From Deltaproteobacteria bacterium (GTDB lineage Bacteria; Desulfobacterota; Syntrophobacteria; Syntrophobacterales; Syntrophobacteraceae): a DNA stretch of 61,196 nucleotides. Location of the stretch: the NCBI GenBank assembly GCA_021777755.1, contig JAJYDE010000021.1, forward strand, positions 1-61,196, given 5' to 3'. Positions 11,916-57,120 of the stretch are shown piece by piece. The position numbers and the translations under genes were made by a program. Position 1 is the first letter of the stretch. Each line of letters begins with the position of its first letter. A model generated the notes under the pieces. That model saw nothing but the letters and a program-made list of their open reading frames with translations, searched no databases and had not been told where the DNA came from.

Positions 11916-12264
11916 CGCTTCCTCCTGCGCCTGCTCCAGCCCGCCCATTCTTCGTGGCTGCGCGGCTTCCTACGAGTTCATCGAGCAATTCGAGTTGATC
12001 GATCGGCCCCGGGATGGCTCTCCGATCGCGCGTAGGACCCGTTTTCAAAGCTTTTCCGCAAACGGCCGGATTTCGGGGCGAACTGCGGCCCCACGCGGTC
12101 CACAGCCCCGCTAAAAACTAAGGGTATGGCCTGATAAAGTCAATTGCCGATTAGTGACCGAAGTAGACCCGGGACTGTAAAGAAAAAGGAAAGGGACCGC
12201 AGTCGATCCATTTTGCACTGACAGCCCCTTCCGAATGTCATATCGAAAGAGCGGACGTGGATAT
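11916..12264. other. Intergenic region between HU gene and acn
   Basis: About 350 bases without a supported gene. On the minus strand TTGACT at 12138-12143 is followed after 17 bases by TAGTTT at 12115-12120, a weak match that could drive the acn operon. No convincing terminator was seen behind the HU gene. Confidence 0.3.
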
Positions 12265-12537
12265 CTACTTGACTTTTTCGCTGAGGGTCTTGCCAGCCTT
12301 GAACTTGACAACTTTTGAAGCAGGGATTTTGATTTTTTCGCCGGTCCGGGGATTACGCCCTTCGCGCTGGGACCTCTCACCGATGCTGAAAGTGCCGAAA
12401 CCAACCAGGGTGATCTTGTCGCCATCCGCCAAGGCGGTGGAAACCGCGGAAACGAAGCCGTCAACGGCCTTTTCGGCCTGAATTTTCGTTATCCCGCCTT
12501 CGTTCGCAATCTTGCCAACCAATTCGGCTTTCGTCAT
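12265..12537 (-). CDS. hup: DNA-binding protein HU
   Basis: Ninety-residue nucleoid protein that bends and compacts DNA as a dimer. Canonical from end to end: N-terminal [11 protein letters not shown] helix pair, VGFGTF beta turn, and the DNA-minor-groove arm with [16 protein letters not shown] strong GAGGAGGAAAG ribosome site precedes the ATG. It has its own promoter about 190 bases upstream, so the message carries a long leader. HU and IHF share this fold; the arm sequence and absence of IHF-specific features favour HU. Confidence 0.95.
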
Positions 12538-12865
12538 TTCTTTCCTCCTCGAAAGTATTAAGTAATAAAAGAACCTCCTCCTTAACTGCCCTCCCCGAAT
12601 CGCCTGTTCTTCATACCTCCTTTGATCAAAAAAAGTGTCTTTACAAGCCCGTTAAACCAGTCGATTTGTCGCCCCTTCGGGCGAACATCCACGCGACCCG
12701 CATCCACACACGTTTTAGCTAAGTTAGGTTCTTATATCTGGAAAAATTCATTTGTCCATAAAAATCGCCTGCGGGAGCAAGAAAAAATGGCGCTGACGCC
12801 TGTTCAGGGACAATATGGCCGGAAAATGAAAAGCGCAAGAGAAATGTTTCCTGGCCGGGCATCGC
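12538..12865. other. HU leader region
   Basis: This 328-base spacer between the HU start and the end of the RelA/SpoT gene holds the HU promoter (12731-12758) and, on the minus strand, a roughly 185-nt untranslated leader. The leader contains a stable GC hairpin at 12668-12686 (arms around a GAAG tetraloop) and two further AGGAGG-like purine runs. No gene was found. Confidence 0.45.
12731..12758 (-). promoter_or_regulatory. Sigma-70 promoter of the HU gene
   Basis: Minus strand: -35 TGGACA (12753-12758), 16-base spacer, -10 TATAAG (12731-12736). Five of six matches in each hexamer. Predicted transcript start near 12724, about 187 bases before the HU ATG. Confidence 0.55.
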
Positions 12866-15022
12866 TCATTCCATGGATCTTTGAACTCTGTAGACGCCTC
12901 TTTCGCTTTTGAGGGCCGACATGACCCGCTGCAGATGCTTTGAATCCTTGACCTCGATTCTCAGGTGACAAACGCTCGAGGTGTCCGCATGACGATCCAC
13001 CCGCAGAGTCATGACATTCACGTCCATATGACCCAGCACCGCGTTCAGGGCGGCAAGCACGTCCCTTTCCCCCGAATAGACAACCCGGATATCCACCGGA
13101 AAAAGCAGCTCTTTTCCCGAATTCCACTGGACGTCTATTCTTCTTCCCTCGGCGTTTCCCCGCTGAAGGTTCCTGCAAGAGGCCCGGTGCACCGTAATCC
13201 CCCGCCCCCTGGTGATGTAGCCCATCACCGGTTCACCCGGAACAGGGTTGCAACACTGGGCCATTCTGATGAGAATGTTATCGAGTCCATCGACCTTTAT
13301 GCCCTCATCTGAAACGGGGGGCTTTTCCTTTTTTACCACCTCCTCCCTGGGATGTTCGACTTCGGGGGGAAGTGCGGCAAGTTTTCCGATGACCTGATTG
13401 GGGGTGATCTTGTGATAGCCGATGCCCGCCAGCAGATCATCGACGCTTTTGAGGGAAAATCCTTTGGCCGCTTCGGCCAGTTCGGTCGAATTGAGATAAT
13501 TGTTGAAATTGAGGCCCTTTTTCCTGAATTCCCTTTCGCAGATCTCCCTGCCACAAGAGATGGACCGCTCCCGTTCCTCGGTTTTGAACCAGTGCCTGAT
13601 GCGGTTTAGCGCCTTGGTGGATTTGACCTGTTTCAGCCAGTCTTTACTGGGCCTGTGACTGGCAGAGGTAAGCACTTCGACCGTGTCCGCGTTTTGGAGT
13701 TCATGGCGAAGGGGAACGAGTTTTCCGTTCACCCTGGCGCCCACACATCGATTGCCCACCTCGGTATGGACCTCGTAGGCGAAATCAACCGGAGTGGCCC
13801 CCTTCGGGAAAGCCTTGACATCTCCGGCGGGAGTGAAAACATAGACTTCATCGGGGTAAAAATCGACCTTGAGGGCTTCGATGACCGCTTTGTGATCGCC
13901 CTTGCCTCCCGCCAGGTCGCGGCCAAGTTCCATTACCTGGCGGAACCAGGAAAAGCGCCGGGTTTCGGCCTGATCGACCTGGCTGACCGGTTTTCCCTCC
14001 TTGTACATCCAGTGGGCCGCTATGCCCTCATCGGCCACCCGGTCCATCTCCCGGGTGCGGATCTGGACTTCCATGCGTTCCCCGTAAGGACCGATGACGG
14101 TCGTGTGAAGCGACTGGTACATGTTGTTTTTGGGCCTTGAGATGTAATCTTTGTACCTTCCGTCCACGGGCTCCCAAAGCGCATGAATGAGGGCCAGGGT
14201 CTCATAGCACGATTTCACCGAGTCCACGATCGCCCGGAAGGCTATCAGGTCGTAGATGCGCGTCAAATCGAGTTTCTGACGTTCCATTTTGAGGTAGATG
14301 GAGTAGATGTGTTTGGGACGCCCGTAGATGCGGCCATTGATGCCGAACTCGCCCATCCGCTCCTTGAGGAGCTGCTCGACTTCCTTGATATATCGGAGCC
14401 TGTCCTCCTGGTTTTTGGCAAGTCCGGCTTCTATCCGCGCATAGGCATCGGGATAGAGGCACTTGAAGGAGAAGTTTTCAAGCTCCTGCTTCATCCAGTC
14501 GATTCCGAGCCTTCCGGCGAGAGGGGCATAGATGTCGAGGGTTTCACGGGCAAGGCCCGAGCCGGAGCGATCCCCGCCGCAAAGCGTTCCCCCGATGCCG
14601 TCCAGACGATCGGCAAGCTTTACAAGAACCACCCGGACGTCACTGGAGATGGCCATGATCATCTTGCGGATGTACTCGGCCTGGCGCTCCTGGCGATTAC
14701 TGTAGGCTATCTGGGTGAGTCGGGCCACGCCCTGCACGATCCGGCAGACATCGGGGCCGAACATCTCGACGAGTTCTTCGGCCGTGGCGTATTGCTTTTC
14801 GAGCGAATCATGGAGCAGCCCCGCGGAGATACTTTCTTCGTCAAGGCGCATTTTTACAAGAATGGCCCCGATGGCCAGCGGATGAGACAAATAGGGCCCG
14901 TCGCCGCCAATTTTTTTGTCCCGGTAGGCCTTGGAGACAAAAACATAGGCTTTTTCCAGAAGCTGTGTGTTTGCCTGCGGCATGTAAGCCAAAATGGCAT
15001 CTATCAATTCATAGAAACGCAC
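12866..15022 (-). CDS. RelA/SpoT family (p)ppGpp synthetase with degenerate hydrolase site
   Basis: Long RSH stringent-response enzyme, 718 residues. Order: HD hydrolase-like domain (about 20-180), synthetase domain (about 220-340, with YKDYISRPKNNMYQSLHTT and EVQIRT), TGS (about 385-450), zinc-finger-like/helical region with QCCNPVPG, and C-terminal ACT. The synthetase core looks intact. The HD domain keeps His47, His71-Asp72 and Glu75, but the next acidic residue is Lys76 and the segment usually reading RLHN is RLDG (Gly142), so two residues generally needed for (p)ppGpp hydrolysis are lost. It is therefore probably synthetase-only. It begins one base after the ispG stop, so the two are co-transcribed. 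Confidence 0.88.
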   Translation of the reverse strand: MRFYELIDAILAYMPQANTQLLEKAYVFVSKAYRDKKIGGDGPYLSHPLAIGAILVKMRLDEESISAGLLHDSLEKQYATAEELVEMFGPDVCRIVQGVARLTQIAYSNRQERQAEYIRKMIMAISSDVRVVLVKLADRLDGIGGTLCGGDRSGSGLARETLDIYAPLAGRLGIDWMKQELENFSFKCLYPDAYARIEAGLAKNQEDRLRYIKEVEQLLKERMGEFGINGRIYGRPKHIYSIYLKMERQKLDLTRIYDLIAFRAIVDSVKSCYETLALIHALWEPVDGRYKDYISRPKNNMYQSLHTTVIGPYGERMEVQIRTREMDRVADEGIAAHWMYKEGKPVSQVDQAETRRFSWFRQVMELGRDLAGGKGDHKAVIEALKVDFYPDEVYVFTPAGDVKAFPKGATPVDFAYEVHTEVGNRCVGARVNGKLVPLRHELQNADTVEVLTSASHRPSKDWLKQVKSTKALNRIRHWFKTEERERSISCGREICEREFRKKGLNFNNYLNSTELAEAAKGFSLKSVDDLLAGIGYHKITPNQVIGKLAALPPEVEHPREEVVKKEKPPVSDEGIKVDGLDNILIRMAQCCNPVPGEPVMGYITRGRGITVHRASCRNLQRGNAEGRRIDVQWNSGKELLFPVDIRVVYSGERDVLAALNAVLGHMDVNVMTLRVDRHADTSSVCHLRIEVKDSKHLQRVMSALKSERGVYRVQRSME

Positions 15023-40169: not shown

Positions 40170-40262
40170 TGGCGGAGGGAGTAGGATTCGAACCCACGGT
40201 TCCGCTACTAACGGAACAACGGTTTTCAAGACCGCCGCCTTAAACCACTCGGCCATCCCTCC
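40170..40262 (-). tRNA. tRNA-Ser (UGA anticodon)
   Basis: Class II tRNA: acceptor GGAGGGA pairs with TCCCTCC, anticodon loop CTTGAAA gives TGA (reads UCA and relatives), long variable arm GTTCCGTTAGTAGCGGAAC, T-arm GGGTTCGAATCC, encoded CCA. First of two serine tRNAs behind a strong promoter. Confidence 0.96.
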
Positions 40263-43414: not shown

Positions 43415-43475
43415 AGGAGTCGGAAGCCTTGACGGCGTCCGGCGGCCTCCGATATCCGATATGGAGATTGTATTG

Positions 43476-46148
43476 ATGAAAGCAAGTGAAATCCGGCAGG
43501 CATTCCTCGAATTTTTCAAAAAGTACGGCCATACCATCGTCAAGAGTTCCTCGGTAATTCCCCGCGACGATCCGACCCTGCTTTTTACCAACGCGGGCAT
43601 GGTGCAGTTCAAGAGGACCTTTCTCGGCGAGGAAAAACGCCGGTATTCACGCGCCACAACGAGCCAGAAATGCATGCGTGCGGGCGGCAAGCACAACGAC
43701 CTGGAAAATGTCGGGCGCACCGCCCGGCATCACACCTTTTTTGAAATGCTCGGCAATTTTTCCTTCGGCGATTATTTTAAAGAGGATGCGATCAGGTTCG
43801 CATGGGAGTTTTTGACCGGTGAGTTGGGTCTGCCCGAAGACAAGCTCTACGCCACAATTCACGAAGGCGATAGTGAAATGGGCCTTGGCCCTGATGAAGA
43901 AGCGCGCGGCTTCTGGGCGAGATATCTTCCCGATGAGCGGATTTTGACCTTTCCCACCAAGGATAATTTCTGGTCGATGGGCGACACGGGTCCCTGCGGA
44001 CCCTGCTCGGAAATCATTATCGACCAGGGGCCGGGCATAGGGTGCGGGCAGCCCGATTGCCGGCCGGGCTGCGACTGCGACCGTTATCTGGAACTGTGGA
44101 ACCTGGTGTTCATGCAGTTTAACCGCTCCGGTGAAGGCACCCTTGCACCCCTGCCCAAACCCAGCATCGACACCGGAATGGGGCTCGAAAGAATCGCGGC
44201 CGTGCTTCAAAAGGTGCCCTCAAATTACGACACCGATATCTTCTCACCCATGATGGCCTCGATCGAACAACTGACCGGCTGCAAGTACGGGGCTTCGGCC
44301 GAAAAGGATGTTTCCTTCAAGGTCATTGCCGATCACAGCCGCTCGGCGGCTTTTCTGATCGGAGACGGCGCCCTGCCGGGAAACGAAGGCCGCGGCTACG
44401 TCTTGCGGCGTGTTATTAGGCGCGCCCTAAGGCACGGCCGCTTCCTTGGCCTCAACCGGCCCTTTTTGTCCGAAGTCGCCCGGTCGGTCATGGAATCCAT
44501 GTGCGACGCTTATCCCGAACTCATGGAAAACCGAAGCTTCATAACCCGCGTCATCCTCAACGAAGAAGAACGTTTCAATGAAACGCTCGATAACGGCCTG
44601 AAACTCCTGCAAACCGAGATCAAACGGTTAACTGACCAAAATGCCCGCGCAATTCCCGGCTCACTCATCTTCAAGCTCTATGACACCTACGGCTTTCCGA
44701 TCGATATTATCACGGACATGTCCAGGGATTCGGGTTTTCAGGTCGATGAGGCCGGTTTCCATGAATTGATGGAAAAGCAGCGCGATCAGTCCAGGGCCGC
44801 GTGGAAAGGCTCCGGAGAGCGTGAGGTGCCCGAAGCTCTTCGCCGGATTTCCGCCAGAGGCATGAACATGGATTTCCTGGGGTATGAAACCACACAAGCC
44901 GATTCCGAAGTTATCGCCATGATCAGCGGCGGTGAAGAAATCGGCTCGGCCTCCGATGGAATGGATGTCGAACTGATCGCTTCCGCCACACCCTTTTACG
45001 GCGCCTCCGGCGGCCAGGTGGGCGACAAGGGAGTGATCACCGGACCGAGTGGCAAAATCACAGTTTCGGATACCTTGAAGCTGCATCCCAGCCTGATCGT
45101 TCACGTCGGCAGGGTCGAAAGTGGAACCATCCATGTCGGAGATCCGGTGAGCCTGACAGTCGATGCCCGGCTTCGAAAAGACACCGAAATTCATCACACC
45201 GCAACCCATATTCTCCACGCCGTTTTGCGCACGGTGCTCGGAGACCATGTCAAGCAGGCGGGCTCTCTGGTCGCCCCCGATCGCCTGAGGTTCGACTTCA
45301 CTCATTTTAGCGCCTTGAGCGCCGAGGAACTGGCCACTGTCGAACAGCTCGCCAATGATGAAATCCGAAAAAGCCTGCAACTCCACGTTCGGGTGATGGA
45401 GCTGGAAGAGGCGCTCAAAACGGGCGCCATGGCCCTTTTTGAAGAAAAATACGGCGATCGCGTGCGCATGGTCGAAATCCCGGGCTTCAGCCGAGAACTC
45501 TGCGGAGGCACCCACACCAGGGGAACCGGCGAACTGGGGCTTTTCATCATCTTGCAGGAGACCGGAATTGCCGCCGGGGTCCGAAGGATCGAAGCTCTGG
45601 CCGGCAGGCATGCGGTGGCATACATGAACAAACAGAGGCAAGCTCTAAGCCGGGCCGCCGCCGCCCTTCGCGTGGGGCCGCTTGAGGTTGGAGAAAGAGT
45701 TGAAAAAATTTTACTCCAGCAGCGCCAAATGGAAAGGGAAATCGAGGCACTGAAGGCCTCCGCCGCAGGCAGACGATCGGCCGATCTCTTCGACCAGGCC
45801 GCAGAAATAAATGGCGTTGGAGTTCTCGTCGCCAGGATCGAAACCGATGATCCCAAGGCGCTCCGGGAAATAAACGACAAGTTCAAAGAAAAATTTGCAA
45901 AGGGAGTGACGGTCCTGGGCGCGGTTTCGGGCCCCAAGGTCTTTTTGCTCGTGGGCGTTACCGGTGAACTCACCGCCCGATTGCACGCCGGAAATCTGAT
46001 CCGGGAGATCGTAAAAGAGGTGGGCGGCTCAGGAGGTGGCAGACCCGATATGGCTCAAGCCGGTGGAAACAGGCCCGACAAGATCGAGGACGCCCTGCGG
46101 TTGGCCGAAAAATTGATCCGCGAAAAGCTGGAGTCAACCCCTCGATGA
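43476..46148 (+). CDS. alaS: Alanyl-tRNA synthetase
   Basis: Charges tRNA-Ala and edits Ser/Gly mischarging. About 890 residues: class II catalytic core starting MKASEIRQAFLEFF with RTARHHTFFEMLGNFSFG, tRNA-recognition helices, editing domain with HHTATHILHA and CGGTHTRGTGE, and the C-terminal Gly-rich DHHA1 domain (GGSGGGRPDMAQAGG). ATG at 43476 has GGAG nine bases upstream and matches the family N-terminus; the frame is open to 43461. The final 18 bases, including the stop, form one arm of an inverted repeat shared with the opposing selenoprotein gene. Confidence 0.97.
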   Translation: MKASEIRQAFLEFFKKYGHTIVKSSSVIPRDDPTLLFTNAGMVQFKRTFLGEEKRRYSRATTSQKCMRAGGKHNDLENVGRTARHHTFFEMLGNFSFGDYFKEDAIRFAWEFLTGELGLPEDKLYATIHEGDSEMGLGPDEEARGFWARYLPDERILTFPTKDNFWSMGDTGPCGPCSEIIIDQGPGIGCGQPDCRPGCDCDRYLELWNLVFMQFNRSGEGTLAPLPKPSIDTGMGLERIAAVLQKVPSNYDTDIFSPMMASIEQLTGCKYGASAEKDVSFKVIADHSRSAAFLIGDGALPGNEGRGYVLRRVIRRALRHGRFLGLNRPFLSEVARSVMESMCDAYPELMENRSFITRVILNEEERFNETLDNGLKLLQTEIKRLTDQNARAIPGSLIFKLYDTYGFPIDIITDMSRDSGFQVDEAGFHELMEKQRDQSRAAWKGSGEREVPEALRRISARGMNMDFLGYETTQADSEVIAMISGGEEIGSASDGMDVELIASATPFYGASGGQVGDKGVITGPSGKITVSDTLKLHPSLIVHVGRVESGTIHVGDPVSLTVDARLRKDTEIHHTATHILHAVLRTVLGDHVKQAGSLVAPDRLRFDFTHFSALSAEELATVEQLANDEIRKSLQLHVRVMELEEALKTGAMALFEEKYGDRVRMVEIPGFSRELCGGTHTRGTGELGLFIILQETGIAAGVRRIEALAGRHAVAYMNKQRQALSRAAAALRVGPLEVGERVEKILLQQRQMEREIEALKASAAGRRSADLFDQAAEINGVGVLVARIETDDPKALREINDKFKEKFAKGVTVLGAVSGPKVFLLVGVTGELTARLHAGNLIREIVKEVGGSGGGRPDMAQAGGNRPDKIEDALRLAEKLIREKLESTPR

Positions 46149-46159
46149 GGGGTTGACTC
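46131..46159. terminator. Inverted repeat spanning the alaS and selenoprotein stops
   Basis: Perfect 13-bp arms GAGTCAACCCCTC (46131-46143) and its complement (46147-46159) with only GAT between them. Both stop codons of the converging genes lie in it. On the minus strand CAGCTTTTC follows; no T-tract on the plus strand. Possible bidirectional terminator. Confidence 0.5.
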
Positions 46160-46325
46160 AAATCTGGTCCACACGGCAAAAAGATAGCTCTCGTTCTATC
46201 TCGTCGGTGAGTTCCTCGCGAAAATCGTAGATGCTGTATGTCGCGCCGCATTCCCGGCAGCGCAGGGAGGCCGTGCGTCAGCCCTTCACTATTTCGACCT
46301 CTTTGTTGCACTTTTTACAAAGCAA
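46158..46325 (-). CDS. Small zinc-ribbon-like selenoprotein (dual CXXC, UGA as Sec)
   Basis: A 55-codon frame interrupted only by TGA at 46280-46278 (codon 16). Reading it as selenocysteine gives MLCKKCNKEVEIVKG-U-RTASLRCREC… then GATYSIYDFREELTDEI and ends SFCRVDQI: two CxxC pairs (Cys3/Cys6 and Cys23/Cys26) flanking Sec16. Coding continues past the TGA, with the second CxxC and an amphipathic acidic helix, so a plain stop is unlikely. The TTG start has AAGGAG eight bases before it; a GTG at 46334 is also in frame. A stem-loop suited to a bacterial SECIS follows the TGA. It matches my recollection of the 'dual CXXC motif small (seleno)protein' group in deltaproteobacteria, whose function is unknown. 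Convergent with alaS. Confidence 0.8.
46242..46264 (-). promoter_or_regulatory. Candidate bacterial SECIS element
   Basis: Thirteen bases after the in-frame UGA the minus-strand RNA can form an 8-bp stem, UGCGCUGC with GCGGCGCG (two G-U pairs), closed by the loop CGGGAAU. The loop starts 21 bases after UGA and has G at its second position, both as expected for SelB recognition in bacteria. Folding was done by eye. Confidence 0.6.
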
Positions 46326-46480
46326 TTTTGTCACTCCTTAGGTCCGGACGAAATATCGTTATTGGATTTATATCCAATTCGGGCTTGAATTCAAGACCAA
46401 ATCCCGTCAGGCAAGGGACTGCGGGGCTAATTTTTCCGGCGGGCATGGCAATTTACTCTTAGAACAGCAAGCGTCAGTTA

Positions 46481-46509
46481 TTGACTAACCGCCTTAAATA
46501 TCTTAATTT
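46481..46509 (+). promoter_or_regulatory. Candidate promoter of the sigma factor gene
   Basis: TTGACT (46481-46486), 17-base spacer, TAATTT (46504-46509). The -35 is good, the -10 poor. A start near 46516 would leave a leader of about 118 bases. Confidence 0.4.
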
Positions 46510-46587
46510 ATTTAATGTTGAAGGCTGTCTCTGCGAGCTGCGTAAGCTCACGGGATGGCTGGCATTTTGCATATGGCCGGGGCGGGG

Positions 46588-46618
46588 GCGGCAGCAGGCC
46601 GACATTCCCGGCTGCCGC
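46588..46618 (+). promoter_or_regulatory. Hairpin adjoining the sigma factor ribosome site
   Basis: GCGGCAGC (46588-46595) pairs with GCTGCCGC (46611-46618) around a 15-base loop. It ends a few bases before AAGGAG, so folding could affect ribosome access. Confidence 0.45.
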
Positions 46619-46634
46619 AATTAAGGAGAATGAA

Positions 46635-47942
46635 ATGAAATCGTACGGCTCTGAAAAGTGCCTTCCGCTGGAATATTATTTTAAGAAGCCCAATTCGGAG
46701 GAAGATATTGAAAGCCTTCTGCAAGGGCGGGCAACAGAGGGCCGTTTTGAAAGAACCGAGCTCGATCTGGAGCAAATCGACCGGGAAGCTTCGGACCGGG
46801 AAGCTCCGATTCCGGCCCTGGGCGAAATGGAAGTCGACGAAGAAGACGAGCGCGCTGAGACTGAGACCGCTTCGGCGGCCGTGGAAGACTTCGAAGAAGA
46901 CCACATCACCTGTTACCTGAAGGAAGTGTCCAGCTATCCACTTCTTACCCAGGAGCGGGAAACCCAGCTGGCACAGATAATCAGGCACGGCCAGGACGAA
47001 CTGGTGCAAATCATCTGCGAACACGTCGATCAGGCCGGGGTAGTGGCCGATCTGAGCGAAAAAGTTAAAAAGCTCCTCGAACACGAAAAAACCTTTCCCG
47101 GAGTAAGGGACAAGGTGCTGAAGGTCATTGTGCGCACCCTTGAACGGGCCGTTTCCGACCATCCCGAAAACCCGCTTTTCCCGGTCATGCTGAATAGGGT
47201 CAGGGCAATCATGAGGGCGGTCGATACGGCAAAACAGGAGATGGTCAGGGCCAACCTGAGGTTGGTCTTGAGCATAGCCAAACGCTACAGGGGCCGGGGG
47301 ATGACTTTCGACGACCTCATCCAGGAAGGAAACCTGGGGTTGCTCAAGGCGGTGGGGCGGTTCGACCACACCAAGGGCAACCGCTTCAGCACCTACGCCA
47401 CCTGGTGGGTTCGCCAGAGCATCATTCGCGGAATTTACGACAAGACCAGAACCATACGCTTGCCCGTGCATTTTATCGAATTGAAGAACCTTTTTTTCAA
47501 GGTTTATTACGAACTGCTAAAGGAACTGGGACGCGAACCGACGGCTGCCGAAATTGCCGAACACTCCAAGCTGCCCGTGGAAAAAGTGCAGATGGTTCTT
47601 ACCCTGGCCGCCCAGCCCATATCCCTCGAAACTCCCGTAGGCGAGGATGAGCAGAGGCTGGGAGATTTTCTCGAAGATGAAAAGGCGCTCTCGCCTGTCG
47701 ATGAATGTTCGGACCGGGAATTGGCGGAGGTGACCAGGGCGCTTCTTTCCACACTCCAGCCAAGGGAGGAAAAAATTCTGCGGCTAAGATTCGGCCTTGA
47801 CGGCCAGCCGGCGGAAACTCTCGAAAAAATCGGCAAGATTTTTAACGTCTCGAAGGAAAGAATACGCCAGATTGAGAAAAAAGCGCTCCGAAAGCTGAAA
47901 AACCCCAACAGGCAGGCATGTTTGAAAAATTTTATCGACTAG
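46635..47942 (+). CDS. RNA polymerase sigma-70 family factor (RpoD/RpoS group)
   Basis: 435 residues from the ATG at 46635, which has AAGGAG seven bases upstream; the frame is open 40 codons further but without similarity. Acidic N-terminus (about 1-95) without a clear region 1.1, then region 1.2 (ITCYLKEVSSYPLLTQERE), a roughly 110-residue non-conserved insertion, region 2 (GMTFDDLIQEGNLGLLKAV, FSTYATWWVRQSI), region 3, and region 4 ending SKERIRQIEKKALRKLK. The N-terminus and length fit an RpoS-like/group 2 factor better than the housekeeping RpoD (about 580-620 residues in this lineage). Its stop overlaps that of rimO. Confidence 0.85.
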   Translation: MKSYGSEKCLPLEYYFKKPNSEEDIESLLQGRATEGRFERTELDLEQIDREASDREAPIPALGEMEVDEEDERAETETASAAVEDFEEDHITCYLKEVSSYPLLTQERETQLAQIIRHGQDELVQIICEHVDQAGVVADLSEKVKKLLEHEKTFPGVRDKVLKVIVRTLERAVSDHPENPLFPVMLNRVRAIMRAVDTAKQEMVRANLRLVLSIAKRYRGRGMTFDDLIQEGNLGLLKAVGRFDHTKGNRFSTYATWWVRQSIIRGIYDKTRTIRLPVHFIELKNLFFKVYYELLKELGREPTAAEIAEHSKLPVEKVQMVLTLAAQPISLETPVGEDEQRLGDFLEDEKALSPVDECSDRELAEVTRALLSTLQPREEKILRLRFGLDGQPAETLEKIGKIFNVSKERIRQIEKKALRKLKNPNRQACLKNFID

Positions 47943-56411: not shown

Positions 56412-56788
56412 CGTCTTTAGCTCCAGGCAGCACCCGCAACGGCTATTGCAAACCCGTCAGGGAGCCGTCAATTCATTTTGCATGCTATACTCAGGCGTCA
56501 AATTGAAGTCGGAAAACCGGGATCGCCAACCTCCCGACAGGACGCGTCCAAAATGCAAGCAGCTCTGGTGCTGAATTTCATTGAAAAAAATGGCCCTTTC
56601 GGGTAGGTTTTTTTCAGTCTCGCGGGCTTTTCCCTTTTTTTAAAACCGACTTTCGAAAACTTTTTGAAGGAAAAGCCTTTTGTTCAATCCAGGACCTTTT
56701 CGCAGCGTTATTTTGATCTTCGCCACTCTGCCGTACTAATATTAGAATAAATATTGAAAAAGCAAGAAGAAAATCGCAGCCTCGAAAA

Positions 56789-56832
56789 GGTAACCGCCAT
56801 ACCCAAATCAAGGTTAAAATATTGAGGTTACC
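56789..56832. repeat. GGTAACC/GGTTACC inverted repeat
   Basis: Seven-base arms at 56789-56795 and 56826-56832, separated by 30 bases; a direct half-copy AGGTTA lies at about 56810. About 290 bases upstream of rtcB. It could be an activator site; nothing identifies the binder. Confidence 0.3.
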
Positions 56833-57042
56833 AATGGTTGTGTATCTAAAACAATGAATATCAAAAGTGAAAAGCTCCCCCCAAAAACTCATTTCGCCGA
56901 ACTCGACCCGTTTTCCACCATCGAGAGGGTTCCAGGGGAAAGCGAAGCCACTTTCGACCTCAAAATCGTTTTCCCTCGCTTCCGCGGCCTTCGGGACCGG
57001 TGCCCGGGGTTTGCTTTTGCCGGTGTTGAAATGCAATGGAAG

Positions 57043-57070
57043 TGGACAATTTGAATTTTGAGCCTAGATT
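57043..57070 (+). promoter_or_regulatory. Candidate sigma-70 promoter of rtcB
   Basis: TGGACA (57043-57048), 16-base spacer, TAGATT (57065-57070); start near 57077, 44 bases before the ATG. No convincing sigma-54 site was found, although a sigma-54 activator gene lies downstream. Confidence 0.45.
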
Positions 57071-57120
57071 GTTTCCATCTCAAAGTAAACTGATAAACCA
57101 AAAGGTGAGCCGGGCAAAAT

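Follow-up and report, generated by a model that had tools for sequence, protein, structure and literature searches.

A probable single-selenocysteine gene of the NF041197 (OS_HP3) family beside alaS in a Syntrophobacteraceae-like genome

Introduction

The closest described counterparts of the gene reported here are small proteins that a 2026 review lists as 'Dual CXXC motif small protein (hypothetical protein OS_HP3)', with the motif RxU, and that it credits in its table to Zhang and Gladyshev 2007 (PMC13188914). OS_HP3 also stands in the list of a 2022 review (PMC9312934), and the deep-Sep paper names OS_HP3 of Desulfosarcina widdelii as one that its own program overlooked (PMC12013277). Neither the family name nor the passages that list the family in the two reviews give a function (PMC13188914, PMC9312934). 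In NCBIfam the family is represented by the model NF041197 (CxxC_Se_CxxC), named "dual CXXC motif small (seleno)protein", with a cut-off of 40 bits.

Two CxxC pairs are likewise present in the FmdB zinc ribbon (TIGR02605), the LysW carriers, the HypA zinc domain and the Rpb9/TFIIS-type zinc ribbons, all of which show a weak resemblance in profile or fold to the protein described below. Their NCBIfam models nevertheless score far under their cut-offs with it (e.g. 11.8 versus 31.3 bits for TIGR02605 and 15 versus 75 bits for LysW), and to our knowledge none of these proteins has a selenocysteine (Sec) column.

The window, that is, the whole 61,196-nt stretch of DNA analysed here, was the subject of a preliminary description that had pointed to a 55-residue minus-strand frame near alaS as an unannotated selenoprotein. 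The gene is a further member, in a Syntrophobacteraceae-like genome, of a family already catalogued as a selenoprotein. The implied novelty does not hold, because NF041197/OS_HP3 is already listed as such.

Gene and surroundings

When TGA is translated as U, positions 46158–46325 of the minus strand give the 55-residue protein LLCKKCNKEVEIVKGURTASLRCRECGATYSIYDFREELTDEIERELSFCRVDQI, with a TTG start and a TGA stop. Codon 16 (46278–46280, minus strand) is the only in-frame TGA; it lies between CKKC and CREC, and an acidic stretch comes after it, so that translation bears out the frame as first described. The ribosome site that had been noticed before the start is also there: a Shine-Dalgarno motif AAGGAG at 46334–46339 (minus strand), 8 nt upstream of the TTG (46325–46323). 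Among nine same-genus sequences, that of the window included, eight have such a motif (AAGGAG in six, GAGGAG in two), and one of the same-genus sequences (L006) starts with ATG where the window has TTG.

The gene had been placed opposite alaS. This is not exact, as the two do not overlap: alaS (43461–46148, plus strand) ends at 46148, and the gene is convergent with it, sitting just beyond its 3′ end in the gap that precedes a divergent plus-strand ORF (46515–47942). The label alaS comes from the sequence, here as in the preliminary description, and the second ORF is, to judge from its sequence, presumably that of an RpoD/RpoS-type sigma factor; AlaS and sigma-factor matches were found in 12 and 11, respectively, of 19 related loci. 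The interval 46515–47942 is the longest form of the sigma-factor ORF, whose real start probably lies further inside. A perfect 13-nt inverted repeat with a 3-nt loop (46131–46159) spans the convergent ends of the selenoprotein gene and alaS, and is possibly a terminator shared by both; neither a consensus promoter nor a T-tailed terminator was found within 46050–46640. Elsewhere in the window there are seven gaps of more than 250 bases between ORFs of at least 150 codons, the longest being 11969–12866 (897 bases) and 56456–57109 (653 bases).

Family membership

The translated protein matches NF041197 with 52.2 bits against the curated cut-off of 40 (E = 4.9e-14), covering profile positions 1–53 of 53. 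A six-frame search of the genome, in which the same gene scores 43.2 bits, returned it as the only match to the model. C3, C6, residue 16 (Sec counted as Cys), C23 and C26 are invariant in alignments of 18 and 19 sequences. The gene thus shares with NF041197/OS_HP3 the whole 53-position profile, the Sec between two CxxC pairs, the R/K-x-U motif and the small size; nothing essential differs, and what the gene adds is a position next to alaS that many members of its order have kept. Its membership of the family is, in our judgement, as good as certain. Other collections gave little: every Pfam match was below its cut-off (best 18.3 versus 29.8 bits), the best PHROGs match (E 0.0012) was to a family of unknown function, the best PADLOC match had an E-value of 0.032, and tblastn against plasmids returned zero matches.

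NF041197 also includes a second branch, which we describe by the motif CxxCGGxAxI-x-GKU-xxARVVC and which was seen at L121, L122, L124, L125, L129 and L132 (position 5001 in each) and at L133 (position 3918). The Cys/Sec framework is common to both branches, but the second forms a separate clade in the tree and has another C-terminal half. Four of its seven sequences score 42.3–47.7 bits with NF041197 (cut-off 40) and three score 36.4–38.1 bits; six have Sec and one (L125) has Cys. The two branches co-occur in some genomes, e.g. G252 and G108.

Decoding of the UGA codon

All of the genes for Sec insertion that the preliminary description had proposed to look for (selA, selB, selC and selD) are represented in the genome, with matches of 605 bits for selA, 357.9 bits for selB and 372.6 bits for selD, and a tRNA-Sec on contig C74 that scores 74 bits with the Rfam model and has the anticodon TCA according to ARAGORN. 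The selD gene (L078; G000 C50:63628–64548) carries one in-frame TGA of its own, and because of this the SelD of the genome is probably itself a selenoprotein. The Rfam tRNA-Sec cut-off (47 bits) was passed at four places in the genome. Within the window, 40174–40262 reached 48.4 bits and was rejected as a tRNA-Sec, given that ARAGORN calls it tRNA-Ser(tga); the segment 40060–40262 (minus strand) holds two adjacent tRNA-Ser genes (gct and tga), the second of which is the one slightly above that cut-off. At gathering scores Rfam found only two tRNAs in the window.

A protein search over 59 genomes, the window's own included, gave 44 matches, 43 of which have exactly one TGA; the 44th (in G033) is a partial match with an E-value of 0.0086 within a 346-codon frame, and we took it as probably spurious. 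At the level of the class, NF041197 matches occur in 45 of 55 genomes (over the cut-off in 42), and every one of the 47 matches has one TGA. In a sample of the phylum, 112 of 395 genomes have a family match at E ≤ 0.001 and 88 of 395 have one over the cut-off, and 14 control genomes have none. The residue between the two CxxC pairs was then read in 60 homologues, 30 loci from the 59-genome protein search and 30 from the profile search of the phylum, allowing one residue of spacing on either side: it is encoded by TGA in 35 and is Cys in 25, which supplies the Cys homologues at position 16 that the preliminary description had wanted to see. The 30 loci from the phylum search are biased to Cys forms, because these score highest.

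In the phylum sample, selA occurs in 110 of the 112 family-positive genomes and in 245 of the other 283 (Fisher p 1.7e-4, from lists compared by hand and with relatedness ignored), although such a test is weak by nature because 355 of the 395 genomes have selA. The two family-positive genomes lacking selA are G059, which is 79% complete and has selB, and G095, which is 67% complete and has no selB match at 1e-60.

If the UGA were a true stop, the product would be a 15-residue peptide, or the gene would be decaying with an accidental open frame beyond the stop. Such a reading would agree with translation table 11, under which the frame ends at codon 16 and the conventional ORF list holds no ORF at this place, and with the window's own hairpin, which is not significant against shuffles (see below). 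The 39 codons downstream of the UGA argue against it, as dN is smaller than dS in all seven pairs formed with the window's sequence. Upstream of the UGA the same holds in six of seven pairs; for the remaining one (L008) dS could not be computed. In the codons downstream of the TGA, eight same-genus sequences differ by 0.150, 0.174 and 0.344 at the first, second and third codon positions, and in the alignments conservation runs on to the stop codon, so that it does not break off at the TGA, a point the preliminary description had marked for checking. The retention of TGA in 35 of 60 members, with Cys forms that align throughout, also speaks against a true stop, and we consider this explanation very improbable. 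An even more remote reading is that UGA is translated as Trp or another residue through a changed code or a suppressor: the frame is indeed open when TGA is sense, but the gene's own stop is TGA, the 25 homologues without TGA all have Cys and none has Trp at the position, and the Sec machinery of the genome is complete.

These lines of evidence support the selenoprotein reading of the preliminary description, and Sec is almost certainly inserted at UGA codon 16. From sequence comparison, the gene as a whole very likely encodes a selenoprotein of the NF041197 (OS_HP3) family with a single Sec, and its UGA would be read via SelB and a downstream hairpin. That is, SelB would bring Sec-tRNA-Sec to codon 16, a hairpin just downstream of the UGA would direct this decoding, and the 55-residue protein would result. 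Inspection of raw sequence by eye can thus bring to light a selenoprotein of the sort that programs may overlook.

The downstream hairpin

A putative bacterial SECIS hairpin lies at 46242–46264 (minus strand); its stem has 8 bp, and its 7-nt loop, CGGGAAU, begins 21 nt after the UGA. The criteria for such elements given in the 2026 review's passage on them are a 3–9-nt loop that has G in its first two positions, a distance of 16–37 nt from the UGA and an energy of −7.5 or lower (PMC13188914). The window's hairpin lies within these limits, with its 7-nt loop, its distance of 21 nt and a stem energy of −11.8, as calculated with our own script for unbroken stems only. Stems at or below the energy limit were found in 28 of 35 Sec genes versus 2 of 25 Cys genes. 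Compared with synonymous recoding, the hairpin has a mean z of −1.93 in the 35 Sec genes and −0.26 in the 25 Cys genes (Mann-Whitney p 5.5e-5, a value that is too small since the sequences are related), the contrast being slighter for the whole 48-nt fold (z −1.05 for Sec versus −0.64 for Cys). Across 30 Sec sequences the stem pairs in 92.9% of its 240 cells, a figure equalled in 1 of 500 shuffles, whereas the slid controls reached 18.8–57.9%.

These differences speak against the alternative that the hairpin is only a by-product of LRCRECG being encoded in G+C-rich codons, with the SECIS elsewhere or of another form. Several observations would nevertheless fit a by-product. The codons of the CxxC pair yield TGC...TGC; the window's fold taken alone is unremarkable (z −0.99 against shuffles, p 0.10 for synonymous recoding); and in 7 of the 35 Sec genes the stem does not reach the energy limit. 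In the 30 Sec sequences, 11 cells show a two-sided change (equalled in 2 of 500 shuffles), but only two pairs do so (equalled in 108 of 500 shuffles and in two slid controls), and the control slid by +1 has the same two pairs and 11 cells as the hairpin. The nine closest sequences contain zero two-sided changes in the hairpin. On balance we regard the by-product explanation as improbable.

Structure and possible role

An AlphaFold2 model of modest confidence (pLDDT 74.4, pTM 0.53) has strands at residues 9–14, 19–23 and 29–31 and helices at 32–35 and 41–48, and places residue 16 in the turn that joins the first strand to the second. The CxxC pairs C3/C6 and C23/C26 would be the knuckles, with the spacing C6-x9-U16-x6-C23. 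Foldseek found no match at E ≤ 0.001, and zinc ribbons were among its best weak matches (best E 0.14), as they were in a fold comparison with 610 chains (best Z 4.1, not significant). A large share of both lists consists of Rpb9-type RNA polymerase ribbons, which probably reflects no more than the shape that ribbons have in common. PDB sequences searched by profile yielded no convincing match (best E 0.0023, with no stretch passing alone), and a literature search found no paper joining Sec, zinc ribbon and Desulfovibrio. Both the zinc ribbon and the Sec site are weakly backed, because the model is modest and no PDB match is significant.

Very small as it is, a protein of the NF041197 family is probably metal-binding. 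The redox or metal-binding role put forward in the preliminary description is at present a guess, as is the more specific picture, derived from the model, of a zinc-ribbon-like protein whose selenol would lie close to the tip of the hairpin and apart from the metal. Because residue 16 is in the turn and the knuckles are at C3/C6 and C23/C26, the Sec would be exposed near the tip and would not be a metal ligand. The two CxxC pairs would form one zinc-ribbon-like metal site, the Sec of the R/K-x-U-R motif would sit at the β-hairpin turn at a distance from the metal end, and its exposed selenol could take part in redox chemistry or capture a soft ligand. Within the first branch, a Cys occurs in the last nine residues of 48 of 53 Sec forms versus 15 of 26 Cys forms (p 0.002, relatedness ignored), and this tail Cys of most Sec forms, though not universal, would perhaps fit a residue that resolves the Sec. 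We put forward this mechanism in its entirety (metal site, exposed tip selenol, tail Cys perhaps resolving) only tentatively.

It may alternatively be that the Sec of this selenoprotein is itself a metal ligand, or a redox switch at the CxxC site that releases zinc, and not an exposed tip selenol. Its position between the two CxxC pairs in the sequence and its replacement by Cys only, in 60 members, would be in keeping with this, while the spacing C6-x9-U16-x6-C23 and the predicted strands put residue 16 towards the distal end of the hairpin, albeit in a model of modest confidence; we consider the metal-ligand reading rather unlikely. A zinc-ribbon-like protein with its Sec at the tip could hold a free-standing selenol (for redox or soft-ligand capture) outside any thioredoxin-like fold or UxxC/CxxU motif, later replaced by Cys in several lineages, a reading that we think doubtful. 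The passages of the two reviews that treat the family contain no description of such a tip setting for Sec (PMC13188914, PMC9312934).

Relatives and history

The nearest named relatives, 19 loci, are from Syntrophobacteraceae and 'Deltaproteobacteria' MAGs. The CxxC-stop-CxxC motif is present in 18 of them, the exception being L100 (Acidobacteria), and 10 of the 19 are flanked by both alaS and the sigma factor, several loci being cut by contig ends. In a wider set of 47 loci, which omits 9 of the 19 nearest loci and 3 of 40 others (L123, L134 and L139), alaS is a neighbour in eight, all from the window's order. Outside that order no widely shared operon partner was seen in this set, and no neighbour suggests a function or pathway. 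Sixteen neighbour proteins were inspected by eye, some of them presumably PyrE-, FabD- or TopA-like; the largest neighbour cluster (13 loci) was disregarded, as it looks like a mixed single-linkage group.

Two congeners, G004 (91% complete) and G009 (88% complete), have selB but zero matches to the NF041197 family, and another gene follows alaS in both; for this reason the gene seems dispensable. The alaS match of G009 (L141, G009 C40:143924–144562) has one in-frame TAG, the frame ending at 2136 of the locus, within the matched range; the TAG is most likely simply where that gene ends.

In the sampled phylum the family is widespread and has both Sec and Cys forms, and a comparison of the two could reveal the contribution of selenium to so small a protein. 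Three changes between Sec and Cys are required by a quick tree of 86 members (59 with Sec and 27 with Cys, over 54 columns), in which 47 of 82 inner branches are drawn open for low support; starred branches force two or more of these changes. If this weak tree is rooted on the second branch, in which six of seven sequences have Sec, the changes are most simply from Sec to Cys, a direction that the 2026 review calls rare in the passage on such replacements (PMC13188914).
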